Of a DNA stretch of 51,251 nt, positions 39,253 to 44,290 are shown one piece after another. The position numbers and the translations under genes were made by a program. Source of the DNA: Actinomycetota bacterium (lineage in GTDB: Bacteria > Actinomycetota > AC-67); assembly GCA_040905475.1 (NCBI GenBank), contig JBBDRM010000028.1, positions 1 through 51,251 of the forward strand, in the 5' to 3' direction. The notes beneath the pieces were generated by a model that worked only from the letters and a program-made list of their open reading frames with translations, was not told the DNA's origin and did no database searches. How positions within the stretch are numbered: position 1 is the first letter of the stretch; the number at the start of each line of letters is the position of its first letter.

Positions 39253-39333
39253 ATGGGGATGAAGCGTATCTTCGCGATGCTGTCGACGCTCGTTGCGGTG
39301 TTCCTCGCCGCCGGCGCAGGAGCTCGGTGGTAA
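39253..39333 (+). CDS. Micro-peptide 1 (26 aa), paralogue of the peptide at 42080-42154
   Basis: ATG 39253 (or in-frame ATG 39259) to TAA 39331-39333, with AAAGGGGG 4 nt (or 10 nt) upstream. The peptide starts MGMKRIFAML, continues STLVAVFLAA and ends GAGARW. It has a short positive n-region (KR), a hydrophobic core and an A-x-A site just before the final Arg-Trp, so it looks like a bare signal peptide. The second copy at 42080-42154 shares 16 of 24 aligned residues (MKRI, LS, GA.ARW-stop), and many shared residues use different codons, which points to selection on the protein. An intrinsic terminator follows 20 nt after the stop, so this is a stand-alone short transcript. No homologue is known to me. 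Confidence 0.62.
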   Translation: MGMKRIFAMLSTLVAVFLAAGAGARW

Positions 39334-39353
39334 CAGAACCTCGCTAGGGAGGG

Positions 39354-39387
39354 AAGGGCGGAGCCGTGAGGCCCGCCTTTCTCCTTT
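39354..39387 (+). terminator. Intrinsic terminator after micro-peptide 1
   Basis: AAGGGCGG-A-GCC, tetraloop GTGA (GNRA type), GGC-CCGCCTTT, then CTCCTTT. About 11 paired bases plus a T-rich tail. It also separates the peptide gene from the convergent HD-domain gene ending at 39395. Confidence 0.65.
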
Positions 39388-39394
39388 GGCGTGT

Positions 39395-40687
39395 CTAGAT
39401 CATCCCCGACTTTTCGAGAACCTTGGTCATTGCCTGGATCGCCGCCGGGTCGTAGTCGTATGCCATCCCGGTGTGGAGCTTCTCAAGCGCATCCCAGGGC
39501 GTTCGGCCGGGACCGGCCGGCTCCGTTAGATCGTCGTAGGCGCTTGCCACCTTGATGATCTTCGCTCCGGTGGGGATGTTCCTGTTCACGTCCTCTCCCC
39601 GACGCCGGTACGGCTCGTGCTGATCGCGAACCATCCGGGCGACCGCCGGGAAATGGCCGGTCTCCTCGATGATCTCACCGCCGACCAGCGCGAGTTGCAG
39701 GTTGGAAGCGCTCTTCGCGGCATCTTCGGGATCGGGGAGACTGATGCGTCCGATGTCGTGCAGAAGTGCGGCGTACTCGATCTCTCGCACCTCCTGCGCC
39801 GCGACTCCGAGCTCGCGGGCGATCGCCACGGCCAGCGTCGCTACGCGAGCCGAGTGATCGCGCTGCGTGTATCCCGCCATCTCGGGGACCTTCGCGAGGG
39901 CACGCACGGTTTGCAAGTAGTTCTTACGGATCGAATCGACTTGCTTGAACGAGTATTGCGTCGCCGCAAGCGGCGCCAAAAAGAGCGGGAGGGTCCACAC
40001 ACGCAGCTCCGGATACGCGAGGGCCAGGAGGGCGGAGACCGACACCGTCGAGACTAGAAGCGGTGTCGTCGCACGCAACTCGTCACGCGCTACCTGTCGG
40101 ACGGGGAGCTGCTCGTCGGCGAGAACGAGCAGCGATTGAAGCACGACGTCGGACGTCACCGCGACGACCAGCACTGCCATGAGCCCGAGCATGGACATGT
40201 GATGCGGACCGAAGGACGTTACTTCACCGGCCGACCACACGACGGCCCGGTACGCGGCGGCCGATGCAAGTACGACGAGGAGCCTCACCGCGACCACCGG
40301 AAGGCGGATCGGCCGGCGGCGAACGAGCCGCCAGACCGCCGCGAGGGCGCTTCCGAGGACGAAAACCGTCACGACCTCGCCGAGCGTGGGGAAATCCCAG
40401 GCGAGGCACTTGTTGCCGGCAGCGGCTTCGGTGCAATACCGGTGCAGCCCGAACGCGAGACTGGGGGCAAGGCCGAGCGAGAACACCGAATGGCGGTCGA
40501 GCGGGATCTCGAGAAGATCGCCCAATGCCACGAACGCTGCGAAGGCTACGGCGGTGCCGCTCAAGGCGATCTCCCAGTCGGTCCGTAGTCCCCACGCCAG
40601 GACGGTCGCCACAGCGCCCGCCGCCGCCGCCGCCCCAACCGCGAGCAGAAGCCTGGAATGGTCGTCAGAGAGCCGCGGCCGTCGCAC
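39395..40687 (-). CDS. Membrane protein with degenerate HD-GYP-like domain
   Basis: 430 residues. Seven or so hydrophobic helices occupy 1-240 (LLLAVGAAAAAGAVATVLAW, 'TLGEVVTVFVLGSALAAVW' and others). A cytoplasmic HD domain follows: 'YTQRDHSARVATLAVAIARE' and 'EIEYAALLHDIGRISLPDPE' (the HD pair), then VRDQHEPYRRRGEDVNRNIP where GYP is expected, so the GYP motif is lost. 'PTGAKIIKVASAYDDLTEP' matches the later D motif. c-di-GMP phosphodiesterase activity is doubtful; it may be a sensor or modify another nucleotide. The 5' end overlaps the upstream HD-GYP gene by 23 bp, so the two are co-translated. Confidence 0.82.
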   Translation of the reverse strand: MRRPRLSDDHSRLLLAVGAAAAAGAVATVLAWGLRTDWEIALSGTAVAFAAFVALGDLLEIPLDRHSVFSLGLAPSLAFGLHRYCTEAAAGNKCLAWDFPTLGEVVTVFVLGSALAAVWRLVRRRPIRLPVVAVRLLVVLASAAAYRAVVWSAGEVTSFGPHHMSMLGLMAVLVVAVTSDVVLQSLLVLADEQLPVRQVARDELRATTPLLVSTVSVSALLALAYPELRVWTLPLFLAPLAATQYSFKQVDSIRKNYLQTVRALAKVPEMAGYTQRDHSARVATLAVAIARELGVAAQEVREIEYAALLHDIGRISLPDPEDAAKSASNLQLALVGGEIIEETGHFPAVARMVRDQHEPYRRRGEDVNRNIPTGAKIIKVASAYDDLTEPAGPGRTPWDALEKLHTGMAYDYDPAAIQAMTKVLEKSGMI

Positions 40688-41987
40688 CCGTCACCTCTTC
40701 ATCCTGTTCCGGTTCTGCTTCCCAGCCTTCGCGGCTGATCGCCTTCTCGAGGGCGGCGAGCGACACCGGGTCGAACTGCGTTCCCGCGCAGCGACGGAGC
40801 TCGGCGACGGCGTCTTCGATCCCCTTGGCTTTTCGGTAGACGCGGGTCGACGTCATCGAGTCGAAGGCGTCGCACACCATCACGATCCGCGCGAACACGG
40901 GGATCTCGTCTCCTTTCAATCCATCGGGATATCCGCGACCGTCCATGCGCTCGTGGTGGTGTCGAACCGCGGTTTCCGCCGCCTGGTGGAGGAAGTCGAT
41001 CTCGCTGACGATCTCGTATCCGCGAACGGGATGGGCCTTCATGTGCTCGTACTCCTCGTCGGTGAGTTTCCCCGGTTTGGCGAGGATCTTGGTCGACACG
41101 CCGAGTTTCCCGACGTCGTGCATCAGAGCGATGTACCGGATCACGCGGCACTGTTGGGGCGCGAGACCGTAGGCCCGCGCGGTCATCTCGGACAGCCGCG
41201 CCACTCTCATCGCGTGGCCGCGGGTGTAGGGATCCTTTGCCTCGATGGCCTTGATCAGACTCCCCACCGTCGCTTCGTAGGCCGTTTCCATCTCGATCGC
41301 CGACTGGAAAGCTCCACGCGCAACGAGCAATGGAACGAAGAGGAAGATCACCGACGCCGCGCCCAGACCGGAGATGTACAGCGCAGCCAGCACGATCCCG
41401 AGCAAGGCGAACGCCACGTATCCGCCCGCGAGCTTGCCGAACTGGGTCCGCCACATGTCGCGGAAACGCTCACCCCGAACGAGAGCGAAGACGGTCGCCA
41501 CGAGCGTGGTATTCACGATGAAGTGGACGGCGGTCGCAGCGAGGACCGGCACGAAAACCCTTGGGAACATGTCTTGCCTGGTCACGCGATCACCGATCAG
41601 AGCCCAGTACGCAAGCGCCGCGAACGTGCCCGTCAACGCGAGCTCGCTCATGTTGAACAGATGCCGGATGGGATGTACGCGCCGCGCCTCGCGCGCCGTC
41701 ATGAATCCCGATGCAGCCGCGATCCCGCCCTCGACCGGGCCACCAAGGATGATCGCCGCGATGACGATCACGAAGCTCACGGAATAGACGCCTTCGCCGA
41801 GAGCCAGCGTGACCGGGAACTGATCGACAATGAAGACGAACAGCCCGAAGATGAGTGCCAGGCGGACGTCGATCCCCCCGAAACGCGGATCGCCCGCCTG
41901 AGAGATCGCAACAAGGGTGAGGAGCGTCGCTGCCGCGACGGCCACCATGGAGATGAAGACACGCGCCCGGATCGGCAGGCTCTTCAC
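40665..41987 (-). CDS. Membrane HD-GYP domain protein (candidate c-di-GMP phosphodiesterase)
   Basis: 440 residues from GTG 41987 with GAGGAG upstream. Multi-helix membrane part (about 1-225) resembling MASE-type sensor domains. A complete HD-GYP domain follows: 'KDPYTRGHAMRVARLSEMTA', YIALMHDVGKLGVSTKILAKPGK (HD), VRHHHERMDGRGYPDGLKGDEIPVFARIV (HHExxDGxGYP), and CDAFDSMTSTRVYR. All expected metal ligands appear intact, so hydrolysis of c-di-GMP is plausible. No GGDEF gene is in the window. Micro-peptide 2 is encoded about 90 nt upstream on the same strand and could be in the same transcript. Confidence 0.9.
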   Translation of the reverse strand: MKSLPIRARVFISMVAVAAATLLTLVAISQAGDPRFGGIDVRLALIFGLFVFIVDQFPVTLALGEGVYSVSFVIVIAAIILGGPVEGGIAAASGFMTAREARRVHPIRHLFNMSELALTGTFAALAYWALIGDRVTRQDMFPRVFVPVLAATAVHFIVNTTLVATVFALVRGERFRDMWRTQFGKLAGGYVAFALLGIVLAALYISGLGAASVIFLFVPLLVARGAFQSAIEMETAYEATVGSLIKAIEAKDPYTRGHAMRVARLSEMTARAYGLAPQQCRVIRYIALMHDVGKLGVSTKILAKPGKLTDEEYEHMKAHPVRGYEIVSEIDFLHQAAETAVRHHHERMDGRGYPDGLKGDEIPVFARIVMVCDAFDSMTSTRVYRKAKGIEDAVAELRRCAGTQFDPVSLAALEKAISREGWEAEPEQDEEVTGATAAAL

Positions 41988-42044
41988 TGCGTCCGCTCCT
42001 CTAGCCCGACATCAGGTCCGCATCAGGTTATGGAGCCGGCAGGG

Positions 42045-42071
42045 CCCGCACGAGTCGTCGGCGTGTGCGGG
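42045..42071 (-). terminator. Hairpin between micro-peptide 2 and the HD-GYP gene
   Basis: CCCGCAC and GTGCGGG form a 7-bp stem around a 13-nt loop, 8 nt after the peptide stop. No U-tract follows on the minus strand, so it may attenuate rather than stop transcription into the HD operon. Confidence 0.4.
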
Positions 42072-42079
42072 TGTGGCAC

Positions 42080-42154
42080 TTACCACCTTGCTTGTGCCCC
42101 GGCCGACAGCACTGCTGCTGCAAGCCCGGACAGGAACGCAATGATGCGCTTCAT
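42080..42154 (-). CDS. Micro-peptide 2 (24 aa), paralogue of the peptide at 39253-39333
   Basis: ATG 42154 to TAA 42080. The peptide is MKRIIAFLSG followed by LAAAVLSAGA and QARW. It has KR, a hydrophobic core, then an A-Q-A-R-W end like its sister's A-G-A-R-W. A purine block AAAGGGG lies 14 nt upstream, longer than normal spacing, though GGTTGGG is nearer. Its leader is long and structured, and the HD-GYP gene begins 92 nt downstream on the same strand. Two unlinked short frames having 16 of 24 identical residues with synonymous codon differences is very unlikely by chance. Possible roles are a Sec-cleaved signalling peptide, a membrane micro-protein acting on the HD proteins, or a leader peptide. 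Confidence 0.6.
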   Translation of the reverse strand: MKRIIAFLSGLAAAVLSAGAQARW

Positions 42155-42443
42155 GATTGGTCGCCCAACCCCTTTCACGGAAGATTCTCTCGCTCCGCTA
42201 GATGCGAGAGTGATCTCCGCTCCGCTTGGTTGGAAGCGACGCGTGACGGGACCCTGCCGGCCCCACTCCTATGCGGTTTTCAAAGCGCCGGTGCGCGACG
42301 CCCCCTGATTCCGTCGGGGTCGAGAGGCAGCTTGGCCTGCTCAACGCCCACCCAGGCAGCCAGTCCGAAACGAAACCCCCCGCAAATGCCCGGACCTACG
42401 TCCGGACGCTCGCTAGGGGGAGCTTCTCGGTCTGACGCTTACC
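42155..42443 (-). promoter_or_regulatory. Structured 5' leader of micro-peptide 2 (about 289 nt)
   Basis: Stems seen on the minus strand: CCGGAC-GTAG-GTCCGG (42390-42405), and CTCTCGC with GCGAGAG (42187-42210). An outer stem joins GTCGC-TT-CCAACC (42228-42240) with GGTTGG-GCGAC (42160-42170), just before the start codon. The outer stem includes part of the AGGGG Shine-Dalgarno, so opening it should control translation. This covers the gene-free stretch 42155-42537; nearer the BldC-like gene the sequence (42480-42540) is unusually A+T-rich. Confidence 0.45.
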
Positions 42444-42537: not shown

Positions 42538-42750
42538 CTATCCGGCCTGGGAGGTTCTCCCAGTACGCGTTCCGGACAGTTCGTTCATGAGACGCTCGAT
42601 CTCGCTTGCTGGGAAGCGTCGGTGCCCACCCAAGGTCGAGAGGTGGGGGATCCGCCCTTCCTTGGCCCAGCGCGAGACGGTCTTCGGCGAGACGTGAAGC
42701 ATCCGTGCGACGTCGGACGTTCTCAGGAATTTCTCGCTCGGATGCTCCAT
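42538..42750 (-). CDS. BldC-like MerR-type small DNA-binding protein
   Basis: 70 residues from ATG 42750 (MEHPSEKF), the usual BldC length; an upstream start at 42846 is possible but less family-like. The winged helix-turn-helix is LRTSDVARMLHVSPKTVSRW followed by AKEGRIPHLSTLGGHRRFPA, very close to BldC's PKTVxRWAKxGK..TLGGHRR core. BldC-type proteins bind A+T-rich direct repeats cooperatively and time development in Streptomyces. An A+T-rich patch lies at 42480-42540, right after this gene, next to the micro-peptide 2 promoter. Regulation of that promoter by this protein is a guess from position. Confidence 0.85.
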   Translation of the reverse strand: MEHPSEKFLRTSDVARMLHVSPKTVSRWAKEGRIPHLSTLGGHRRFPASEIERLMNELSGTRTGRTSQAG

Positions 42751-43018
42751 CGCCAATCGCCACCCTTCGGCTGTTGCCGGTTCTCGCCTTGGGACCGGCT
42801 TATCGGTTCTGAGTCGATTATCGACGCCGCGGCGCTCGCCGGACATCGTCCCCCTGGGTGGTTTTGGGATAGCCCGGATGAACTAGTCAGAAAGGGCTAG
42901 GCGACTCATTTCGAGCGCTGATGTATCGTTGGCCCGACTACGCACGGCGAGGCCGGTAGCACCGACGGAGGGAACACTGCGCGAGGGCAACGGGGGACGG
43001 CTGCCCGAGGGCGCCGGG

Positions 43019-43690
43019 ATGTCTGAAGCCGGTCCGCTTGAAGAAGCGATCCGCCGGATATCGGGCATCCAGGCCGCGCGCGTCGTGACCGGACCCGGAG
43101 GCCGGGTCGCGGAGGTTCACGTGCTCGCTGGCCGTGAGCGCGGCGCGAAGCAGCTCGTTCGCGACGTGCAGTCGGTGATCCTCACCAACTTCGGGATCGA
43201 CATCGACTACCGCACGGTGTCCGTCGTTCAGCTCGACGAGCCCGGGCCTTCGACCGCTCCGGAGCGGGGTACCGTCCCCGCGCCCGAAGAGCACGCGACC
43301 TTGTCGGAGTCGGCCGGCGTCCCTCGGGCCGCGATCGTACGGCTCGTCTCCGAGACGGCGTCGTTCACGACAGAGGTCCGGATCGCGGTCGCCGTCAACG
43401 GACACGAGCGTTCCGGCTCGGCCCGCGGGCCTTCAACCTCCGGACTGCGGCTCGTCGCGGGTGCGGCGGTTGATGCGGTAGCCGAGATGCTTCGCGCGTC
43501 GGCCGTCGAAGTCACGTCGGCGGAGCTCCTCGCGATCGGAGCCGTGCAGGTGGCGGTCGTCGTGGTTCGGCTGGCTACCTCGCGGGGCGAGCAGACCCTG
43601 ACGGGTTCGGCCGTGGTGCGCAAAGACGCGAACGACGCCGTTGCCCGCGCGACGCTCGACGCGCTCAACCGCGTGATCGACCGGCGTTAG
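43019..43690 (+). CDS. Two-domain conserved hypothetical protein
   Basis: 223 residues from ATG 43019 with GAGGG upstream; an open frame without a good start extends to 42929. The N-terminal domain (5-70) reads IRRISGIQAARVVTGPGGRV, EVHVLAGRERGAKQLVRDVQ and DIDYRTVSVVQL, a pattern I know from uncharacterised actinobacterial and firmicute proteins. A linker rich in Pro/Glu follows, then a second alpha/beta domain (105-220) with internal similarity between VRLVSETASFTTEVRIAVAV and 'VAVVVVRLATSRGEQTLTGS'. Function unknown. Confidence 0.72.
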   Translation: MSEAGPLEEAIRRISGIQAARVVTGPGGRVAEVHVLAGRERGAKQLVRDVQSVILTNFGIDIDYRTVSVVQLDEPGPSTAPERGTVPAPEEHATLSESAGVPRAAIVRLVSETASFTTEVRIAVAVNGHERSGSARGPSTSGLRLVAGAAVDAVAEMLRASAVEVTSAELLAIGAVQVAVVVVRLATSRGEQTLTGSAVVRKDANDAVARATLDALNRVIDRR

Positions 43691-43696
43691 CGCCGG

Positions 43697-44290
43697 TCAG
43701 CCGGGCGTCAGTTCGCGGTCCCGCTCTCCGGCTCCTCGGCGGCGTTTCCCCGGCCGTCCCACCATCAGCTGCTGGATGAGCAGCAGCAGCCCGGCCCAGA
43801 TCACGATATCTCCCGCGCTCACGACGTTGGCCGTCACGCGGATGGGGATAACGTCGGCCAGGACGGTCAGGCGGTCGTCGTCGTCGAGCGCGTGGTGCGC
43901 GCCCTTGGTGACGGCGCCGCTCTCGAAAGGGTTCCCGAGACCCGCGCGCTCGAGCGCGTCGAGGGAGACCGGCATCCCGCCGTTGGCCGCGATCACCAGG
44001 AAGTTCATCAGGGCGCCGAGCGCGATCAGCGTCATCCCGGGCAGCCTTCGGTTGAGCGCAGCGAACCCGAACGTCAAAGCGAACGAGCCGAGGACGAGCG
44101 CGAGCGGGAGCCAAGACTGATCCGCGCGCTCTGCGATCGTCGAGCCCACCTGCAGCAGCACGCCGATGAAGACCAGCGGGACGCCGTGCAGGTCGGTGCG
44201 CGCCAGGTTGGCGAACGACCCGCGTCGGACGAGCCCCACGCAGATGCCCACGGCGACCGCAAGTAAGAGCCCGATCACGGCGGGAATCAT
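43697..44290 (-). CDS. DUF5317-type membrane protein
   Basis: 197 residues with five hydrophobic helices: 3-20 (PAVIGLLLAVAVGICVGLV), about 38-55, about 63-80, about 86-103 (TLIALGALMNFLVIAANGGM) and about 160-178 (GDIVIWAGLLLLIQQLMVG). 'NGGMPVS' and 'VIPIRVTANVVSAGDIVIWAG' match the DUF5317 pattern. The C-terminus is basic and cytoplasmic. Function unknown. Confidence 0.78.
   Translation of the reverse strand: MIPAVIGLLLAVAVGICVGLVRRGSFANLARTDLHGVPLVFIGVLLQVGSTIAERADQSWLPLALVLGSFALTFGFAALNRRLPGMTLIALGALMNFLVIAANGGMPVSLDALERAGLGNPFESGAVTKGAHHALDDDDRLTVLADVIPIRVTANVVSAGDIVIWAGLLLLIQQLMVGRPGKRRRGAGERDRELTPG

Follow-up and report, generated by a model that had tools for sequence, protein, structure and literature searches.

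Micro-ORFs paired with MASE9 membrane sensors in Actinomycetota and Bacillota probably encode short, agr-like peptide signals

The window, a 51,251-nucleotide stretch of an Actinomycetota genome (contig JBBDRM010000028.1), contains an HD operon on the minus strand whose first gene is a micro-ORF (peptide gene A, 42080–42154; 24 aa, MKRIIAFLSGLAAAVLSAGAQARW, divided into MKRIIAFLSGLAAAVLSAGA and a tail, QARW). The operon continues with a 440-aa protein composed of a MASE9-type membrane sensor and an HD-GYP phosphodiesterase (40665–41987), followed by an overlapping gene for a second membrane protein with a degenerate HD domain (39395–40687; Pfam HD_5 2e-13). A paralogous micro-ORF on the plus strand (peptide gene B, 39253–39333; MGMKRIFAMLSTLVAVFLAAGAGARW, divided into (MG)MKRIFAMLSTLVAVFLAAGA and GARW) is convergent with the 3′ end of the operon. 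The first-pass annotation had described two paralogous micro-peptide genes, each with a purine-rich ribosome-binding site, and we recovered both the genes and the sites. They also flank the two overlapping HD genes as described, except that peptide A is part of the operon rather than one of two brackets around it. Peptide gene A precedes the sensor gene by 92 nt, both being on the minus strand, and its relatives occupy the same place. Based on the family alignment, a start of peptide B at 39259 (MKRI..., 24 aa) appears as likely as the one at 39253.

Peptides A and B are the sole copies within the 4.24-Mb genome and share 16 of 24 residues, a level of identity that none of 200,000 composition-preserving shuffles reached. 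Their codon comparison (pS 0.64, pN 0.23, dN/dS 0.19) points to purifying selection on both. Profiles of the family, which were used for the wider search given that single-sequence peptide searches were too weak outside the class, match peptide A with E-values of 1.7e-12 (profile A1) and 3e-10 (profile A2), and peptide B with 4e-12. Copies were found in all four other genomes of the class that were searched, plus more distant ones, in the first search, and the profile search then detected family members in 55 of the 397 Actinomycetota genomes (a few of these matches are false) and in 42 of the 300 from Bacillota. Matches in G320, G130, and G001:C110 were discarded as fragments of nucleotidyltransferase-like ORFs (VLAAGAGSR), and partial matches inside long frames (G289 and G185:C10) were left out of the member count.

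The family alignment is almost gapless, with a short Met/Lys/Arg start, an R/K position, a hydrophobic core of fixed length, an invariant Gly-Ala, and a tail. The leader of 20 residues is constant and ends in Gly-Ala (at −2/−1 in 70/70 peptides), with mostly A/G/S at −3 and A at −1, a pattern that would fit the type I signal peptide motif. The tails follow the order variable, aromatic, Lys/Arg, aromatic or aliphatic; most are four residues long (range 4–10), 66 different tails occur among the 70 peptides, and none contains an acidic residue. A single Cys was found among the 70 peptides, in a leader, and the tails show no ring motif; a thiolactone or lantibiotic-type peptide was rejected for want of Cys. 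None of 28 members scanned against the Pfam and NCBIfam small-peptide families scored above a curated cut-off, leaving weak, sub-threshold, signal-peptide-like matches, and we found no paper describing the family in the open-access library searched, which omits most subscription journals and preprints. The earlier proposal of a new micro-protein family is strongly supported, and we treat the family as unnamed and previously undescribed.

The 5′ leader of peptide A (42155–42239, minus strand) carries AGCGGAGCGGA (~42216–42226) and a hairpin with TAGCGGA in its loop (~42189–42200), followed by the purine-rich ribosome site. A corresponding arrangement, AGCGRAGCGG with a hairpin that has AGCG (UAGCGG) in its loop some 10–30 nt further on, precedes most peptide genes in both phyla (window leader, L007, L003, L258–L292, and the loci of family f45). 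Of the 27 f45 genomes, 22 carry the motif, almost invariably as a single copy located at the peptide gene. Long structured leaders had been reported for both micro-ORFs of the window; peptide A indeed has the leader motif common to its relatives, and peptide B lacks it. Hairpin pairing exceeded that of shuffled leaders at the level of the set (p=0.0033, the lowest value that the test can give). RNAalifold returned no consensus structure for 29 leaders, so that the hairpin-pairing test is what speaks for a leader structure. The Rfam 15 covariance models gave no riboswitch or leader match to the leaders (none at E<=1 for the window leader, the rest being chance or unrelated), and promoter and terminator scans found nothing. 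The conserved leader is possibly a regulatory RNA. If the RNA alone were functional and the peptide frame incidental, the conserved motif just upstream would be explained, but every member in both phyla keeps an open frame, copies such as peptide B lack the motif, and dN/dS in the peptide's own leader is 0.13–0.19. Loss of the frame in relatives or a dN/dS near 1, which the first-pass annotation had named as refuting its proposal, did not materialize. Codon-level selection refutes an RNA-only function, to which we assign a negligible probability.

To identify the partner of the peptide, its neighborhood was surveyed with Pfam MASE9. Genes for this domain occur in 106 of the 397 phylum genomes, 40 of which also encode the peptide (Fisher p=1e-14). 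Out of 72 peptide profile matches, 39 have a gene with a Pfam MASE9 domain less than 3 kb away, and 26 of these are directly upstream of it on the same strand. An HMM of our own, built from sensor N-termini, detected a sensor beside the peptide at 22/25 loci examined, most without a Pfam-detected MASE9, and in Bacillota 29 of 30 examined peptides are located 88–184 nt upstream of a MASE9/HD-GYP gene. In the reverse test, which started from Pfam MASE9 genes and looked within 500 nt for a hydrophobic small ORF with a ribosome site ahead and an aromatic tail, such an ORF was found upstream of 24/26 genes compared to 9/302 control windows (p=7e-27), several of the nine positive controls being genuine family members.

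The sensors beside peptides are fused to different outputs (HD-GYP, HisKA_3 kinase, HisKA kinase, and GGDEF-EAL), and peptide and sensor genes are either on the same strand or divergent. The kinase and GGDEF-EAL partners in relatives fall below the Pfam MASE9 cut-off (19 bits or no match), yet match our sensor HMM. Peptides of this kind are also found beside kinases and a GGDEF-EAL protein of the MASE9 type, so the sequence data identify the N-terminal MASE9 membrane sensor as the peptide's partner, whatever its output or orientation. The suggestion of a membrane peptide with the HD proteins as its target was accordingly half right, with the sensor domain taking the place of the HD domain. For peptide B, candidate sensors are the second HD protein (39395–40687), which has very weak similarity to the sensor domain (full-sequence E 6e-5 with our HMM, for this single sequence), and the MASE9 protein on contig C82.

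Three features would also suit a cis-acting leader peptide, which on being translated would regulate the genes downstream through attenuation or coupling: the peptide gene usually precedes the sensor gene in the same orientation, its leader is conserved, and Trp is often the last residue ahead of the stop. However, divergent and convergent copies exist, some tails have no Trp (FTKM, SYVVSR, LKIPTQ), and the hypervariable tail tracks the amino-acid sequence of the sensor, as described below. In one family the peptide gene has a MASE9-type kinase gene on either side, one of the two being divergent, a placement incompatible with an exclusively cis-acting leader. We regard this explanation as largely refuted and very improbable.

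The protein encoded at 40665–41987 matches MASE9 (PF20972; 1e-8) with 35.6 bits, above the Pfam cut-off of 24.3, and HD_5 with 1.5e-36. Its HD-GYP signature (H289 D290 G292 K293 H318 H343 H344 E345 G349 G351 Y352) is invariant across 14 aligned proteins. In a structure model of the protein (pLDDT 84), Foldseek comparisons show that the C-terminus resembles HD-GYP structures and the N-terminus (approximately residues 1–235; 41283–41987, minus strand) resembles ECF transporter S-components. The best of these was RibU (5kbw; probability 1.00, TM 0.66 of target, E 0.03–0.05), followed by FolT, BioY, and ThiT; with probabilities near 1 but weak E-values, the modeled MASE9 sensor looks like an S-component fold, and the protein is the presumed receptor.

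Comparisons of related loci showed that tail and sensor have co-diversified, presumably forming specificity groups. Family f45 has a leader (MKRI..LL.SLAALV.GGGA) that hardly varies, and the tails differ among species of one genus (SYVVSR, FTKM, WIRG, LKIPTQ). Between genomes G406 and G407, the HD-GYP domains are 98% identical and the sensors 59%, with the tails IWKG and VWKY. Where tails are the same or differ by one residue (WFRA/WFRA, SFRW/SLRW, IWKW/VWKW), sensor similarity equals or exceeds HD-GYP similarity. Using partial Mantel tests on 22 sensors, in which shared ancestry can inflate the correlation, tail similarity was correlated with sensor identity once HD-GYP identity had been removed (partial r 0.50, p=5e-5); no such correlation with HD-GYP identity was left once the sensor had been removed (r 0.015). 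The Bacillota replicate gave r 0.32 (p=1e-4) for tail versus sensor and 0.005 for tail versus HD-GYP. The tail therefore tracks the sensor and not the HD-GYP domain.

At the DNA level, peptide tail and sensor form a hypervariable cassette between constant flanks. Identity drops with the first codons of the tail and rises again where the sensor domain ends (G406/G407; in Bacillota, G544/G655 and G578/G655). For G406/G407 it is 94–100% upstream, 98% in the leader, 47–66% from tail to sensor (the 15-nt tail bin itself, 80%), and 91–97% in HD-GYP. The peptide leader has a dN/dS of 0.13, and among close pairs pN is 0.007 in the leader and 0.42 in the tail. Genome G416 has two peptide-sensor pairs that share one leader and have two tails (VWKV, YFKL). 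Based on a topology assigned by the positive-inside rule, the two predicted outer loops rank with the sensor's most variable regions, with 16/19 compared positions differing between G406 and G407.

A constant signal-like leader, a hypervariable tail, and a co-varying sensor half are most simply accounted for if the peptide is a ligand that comes in specificity groups, as agr peptides do, and we consider it likely that the micro-ORF encodes a precursor for a short peptide signal, with the exported variable tail as the ligand of the neighboring MASE9 receptor. The constant 20-residue N-terminus (Met-Lys/Arg, hydrophobic core, Gly-Ala) would be the signal sequence that places the C-terminus outside the cell, and the tail (4–6 residues; QARW and GARW here) would probably be freed by signal peptidase after Gly-Ala. 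The tail would then bind an outward-facing pocket of the adjoining sensor and alter, in one direction or the other, the attached output (HD-GYP c-di-GMP hydrolysis here; kinase or GGDEF-EAL in relatives). It is probably a pheromone controlling c-di-GMP. The first-pass annotation had considered a bare signal peptide whose cleavage leaves Arg-Trp. The leader is signal-peptide-like, as it assumed, and the boundary between constant and variable parts falls after Gly-Ala, leaving 4–6 residues rather than RW.

The serious rival to the peptide-ligand reading is an unreleased, single-pass membrane microprotein with its N-terminus inside, which would be a regulatory subunit of the sensor and contact its outer face through the C-terminal tail, in the way that MgrB regulates PhoQ. 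MgrB and SafA are regulatory membrane microproteins in which a single hydrophobic helix acts on a sensor, a feature that the peptides would share; no sequence relation to them was found, and we know of no hypervariable tail or specificity groups in either. An uncleaved subunit would agree with the fixed-length core, which has no indels from R to GA, with the invariant small residues, and with an aromatic and basic C-terminus suited to the membrane interface. The invariance of Gly-Ala exceeds what signal peptidase I needs, and GA may hence belong to the active peptide or to a helix contact. Cleavage is also opposed by one member (G051, tail PWKW) with Pro at +1, as signal peptidase I disfavors Pro right after the cleavage point. 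On the other hand, if the peptide were strictly an internal subunit, it is hard to see why specificity groups should recur in which the membrane segment stays constant and the tail is hypervariable, or why orphan, tandem, and divergently placed copies should exist. We judge it unlikely, though much less so than a leader peptide. The peptide-ligand reading has its own difficulties, in that MASE9-like HD-GYP proteins of many Streptomycetaceae and relatives (L152–L201; Streptomyces, Actinomadura, and others) have no detectable family peptide upstream, two peptides of G160 have no sensor within ~3 kb, and the neighbor of peptide B is only weakly sensor-like.

The arrangement resembles agr of staphylococci and relatives, where hypervariability extends over the peptide and into the 5′ portion of the gene for the receptor (PMC3673130). 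Both systems have a short precursor (AgrD) beside a polytopic receptor (AgrC), and in both the peptide and the sensor part of the receptor are hypervariable between constant flanks, a likeness in working rather than membership. Unlike in agr, the tail is linear, with no Cys/Ser ring motif, and follows a signal-peptide-like leader, and the receptor is a MASE9 (S-component-like) protein, usually with an HD-GYP output. Going by the gene lists (sensor, second HD protein, DUF5317, HPF, SecA, and response regulators), we noticed no AgrB-like gene and no dedicated processing or export gene at or near the peptide loci. Rgg/SHP systems likewise have small ORFs (22–23 aa) missed by annotation, divergent or convergent beside their regulator (PMC13361665), but Rgg is a cytoplasmic transcription factor that needs peptide import, whereas the partner here is a membrane sensor. 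The S-component fold is known in 5TMR-LYT receptors (BtsS, YpdA, KinB), including pyruvate-sensing kinases, where this membrane domain is likewise joined to kinase or GGDEF/EAL outputs; their ligands are small metabolites such as pyruvate, and that study makes no mention of MASE and gave no peptide partner (PMC11109136).

On balance, we lean toward a new class of pheromones in Actinomycetota and Bacillota, in which a precursor of ~24 residues would release a 4–6-residue aromatic/basic tail, read by S-component-like MASE9 receptors with c-di-GMP-enzyme or kinase outputs, with agr-like specificity groups and a conserved RNA leader of its own. Such a system would be widespread and have been overlooked in bacteria, as gene annotation misses peptide genes of only ~24 codons. 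It would supply MASE9 receptors with their ligand, give the S-component fold a peptide-binding role, and link communication between cells to c-di-GMP breakdown in one step, with no two-component relay in between. Since specificity groups occur among closely related species, the proposal could be tested by exchanging tails.

Several other features were noted around these loci. A BldC-like HTH_17/MerR protein (42538–42846, minus strand), directly upstream of the peptide A leader on the same strand, could regulate the peptide gene. The gene at 42929–43690 (+) has no Pfam match and a motif, AARIV...IEEIHVLA...KQLVRDIET; its homologues (L056–L059, L006, L285) also sit beside peptide loci, in a range of genomes that reaches from this class to Bacillota. 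A DUF5317 protein or look-alike (43697–44290, minus strand) recurs near the peptide loci L056, L058, L059, and L008, followed by secA in several relatives. A SecM-like secretion-monitoring arrest peptide, considered on account of this downstream secA, was rejected because a 24-residue nascent chain would not leave the ribosome tunnel. A raiA RNA (Rfam RF03072, E 3e-29; L178:1–162, +) lies slightly >2 kb upstream of a peptide gene in a MAG labelled Slackia. A sister form of the peptide ends in TVRW, SVRW, or NVRW (e.g., MKKLMRVLIALGSLVGICSTVRW and MARFFKLIFSLVGLGSTVRW) and often occurs as two identical tandem copies, ~100–135 nt apart, upstream of MASE9/HD-GYP genes (L086, L088, L090, L095, L097, L105, L079). 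At L121 (1478 and 1790, +), two tandem peptides of divergent sequence, MRKILYALASLAAVAMAVGAGWKPY and MRKHDWRYVLFTGATLAALLLAAGARWKPN, precede a MASE9-type GGDEF-EAL protein.
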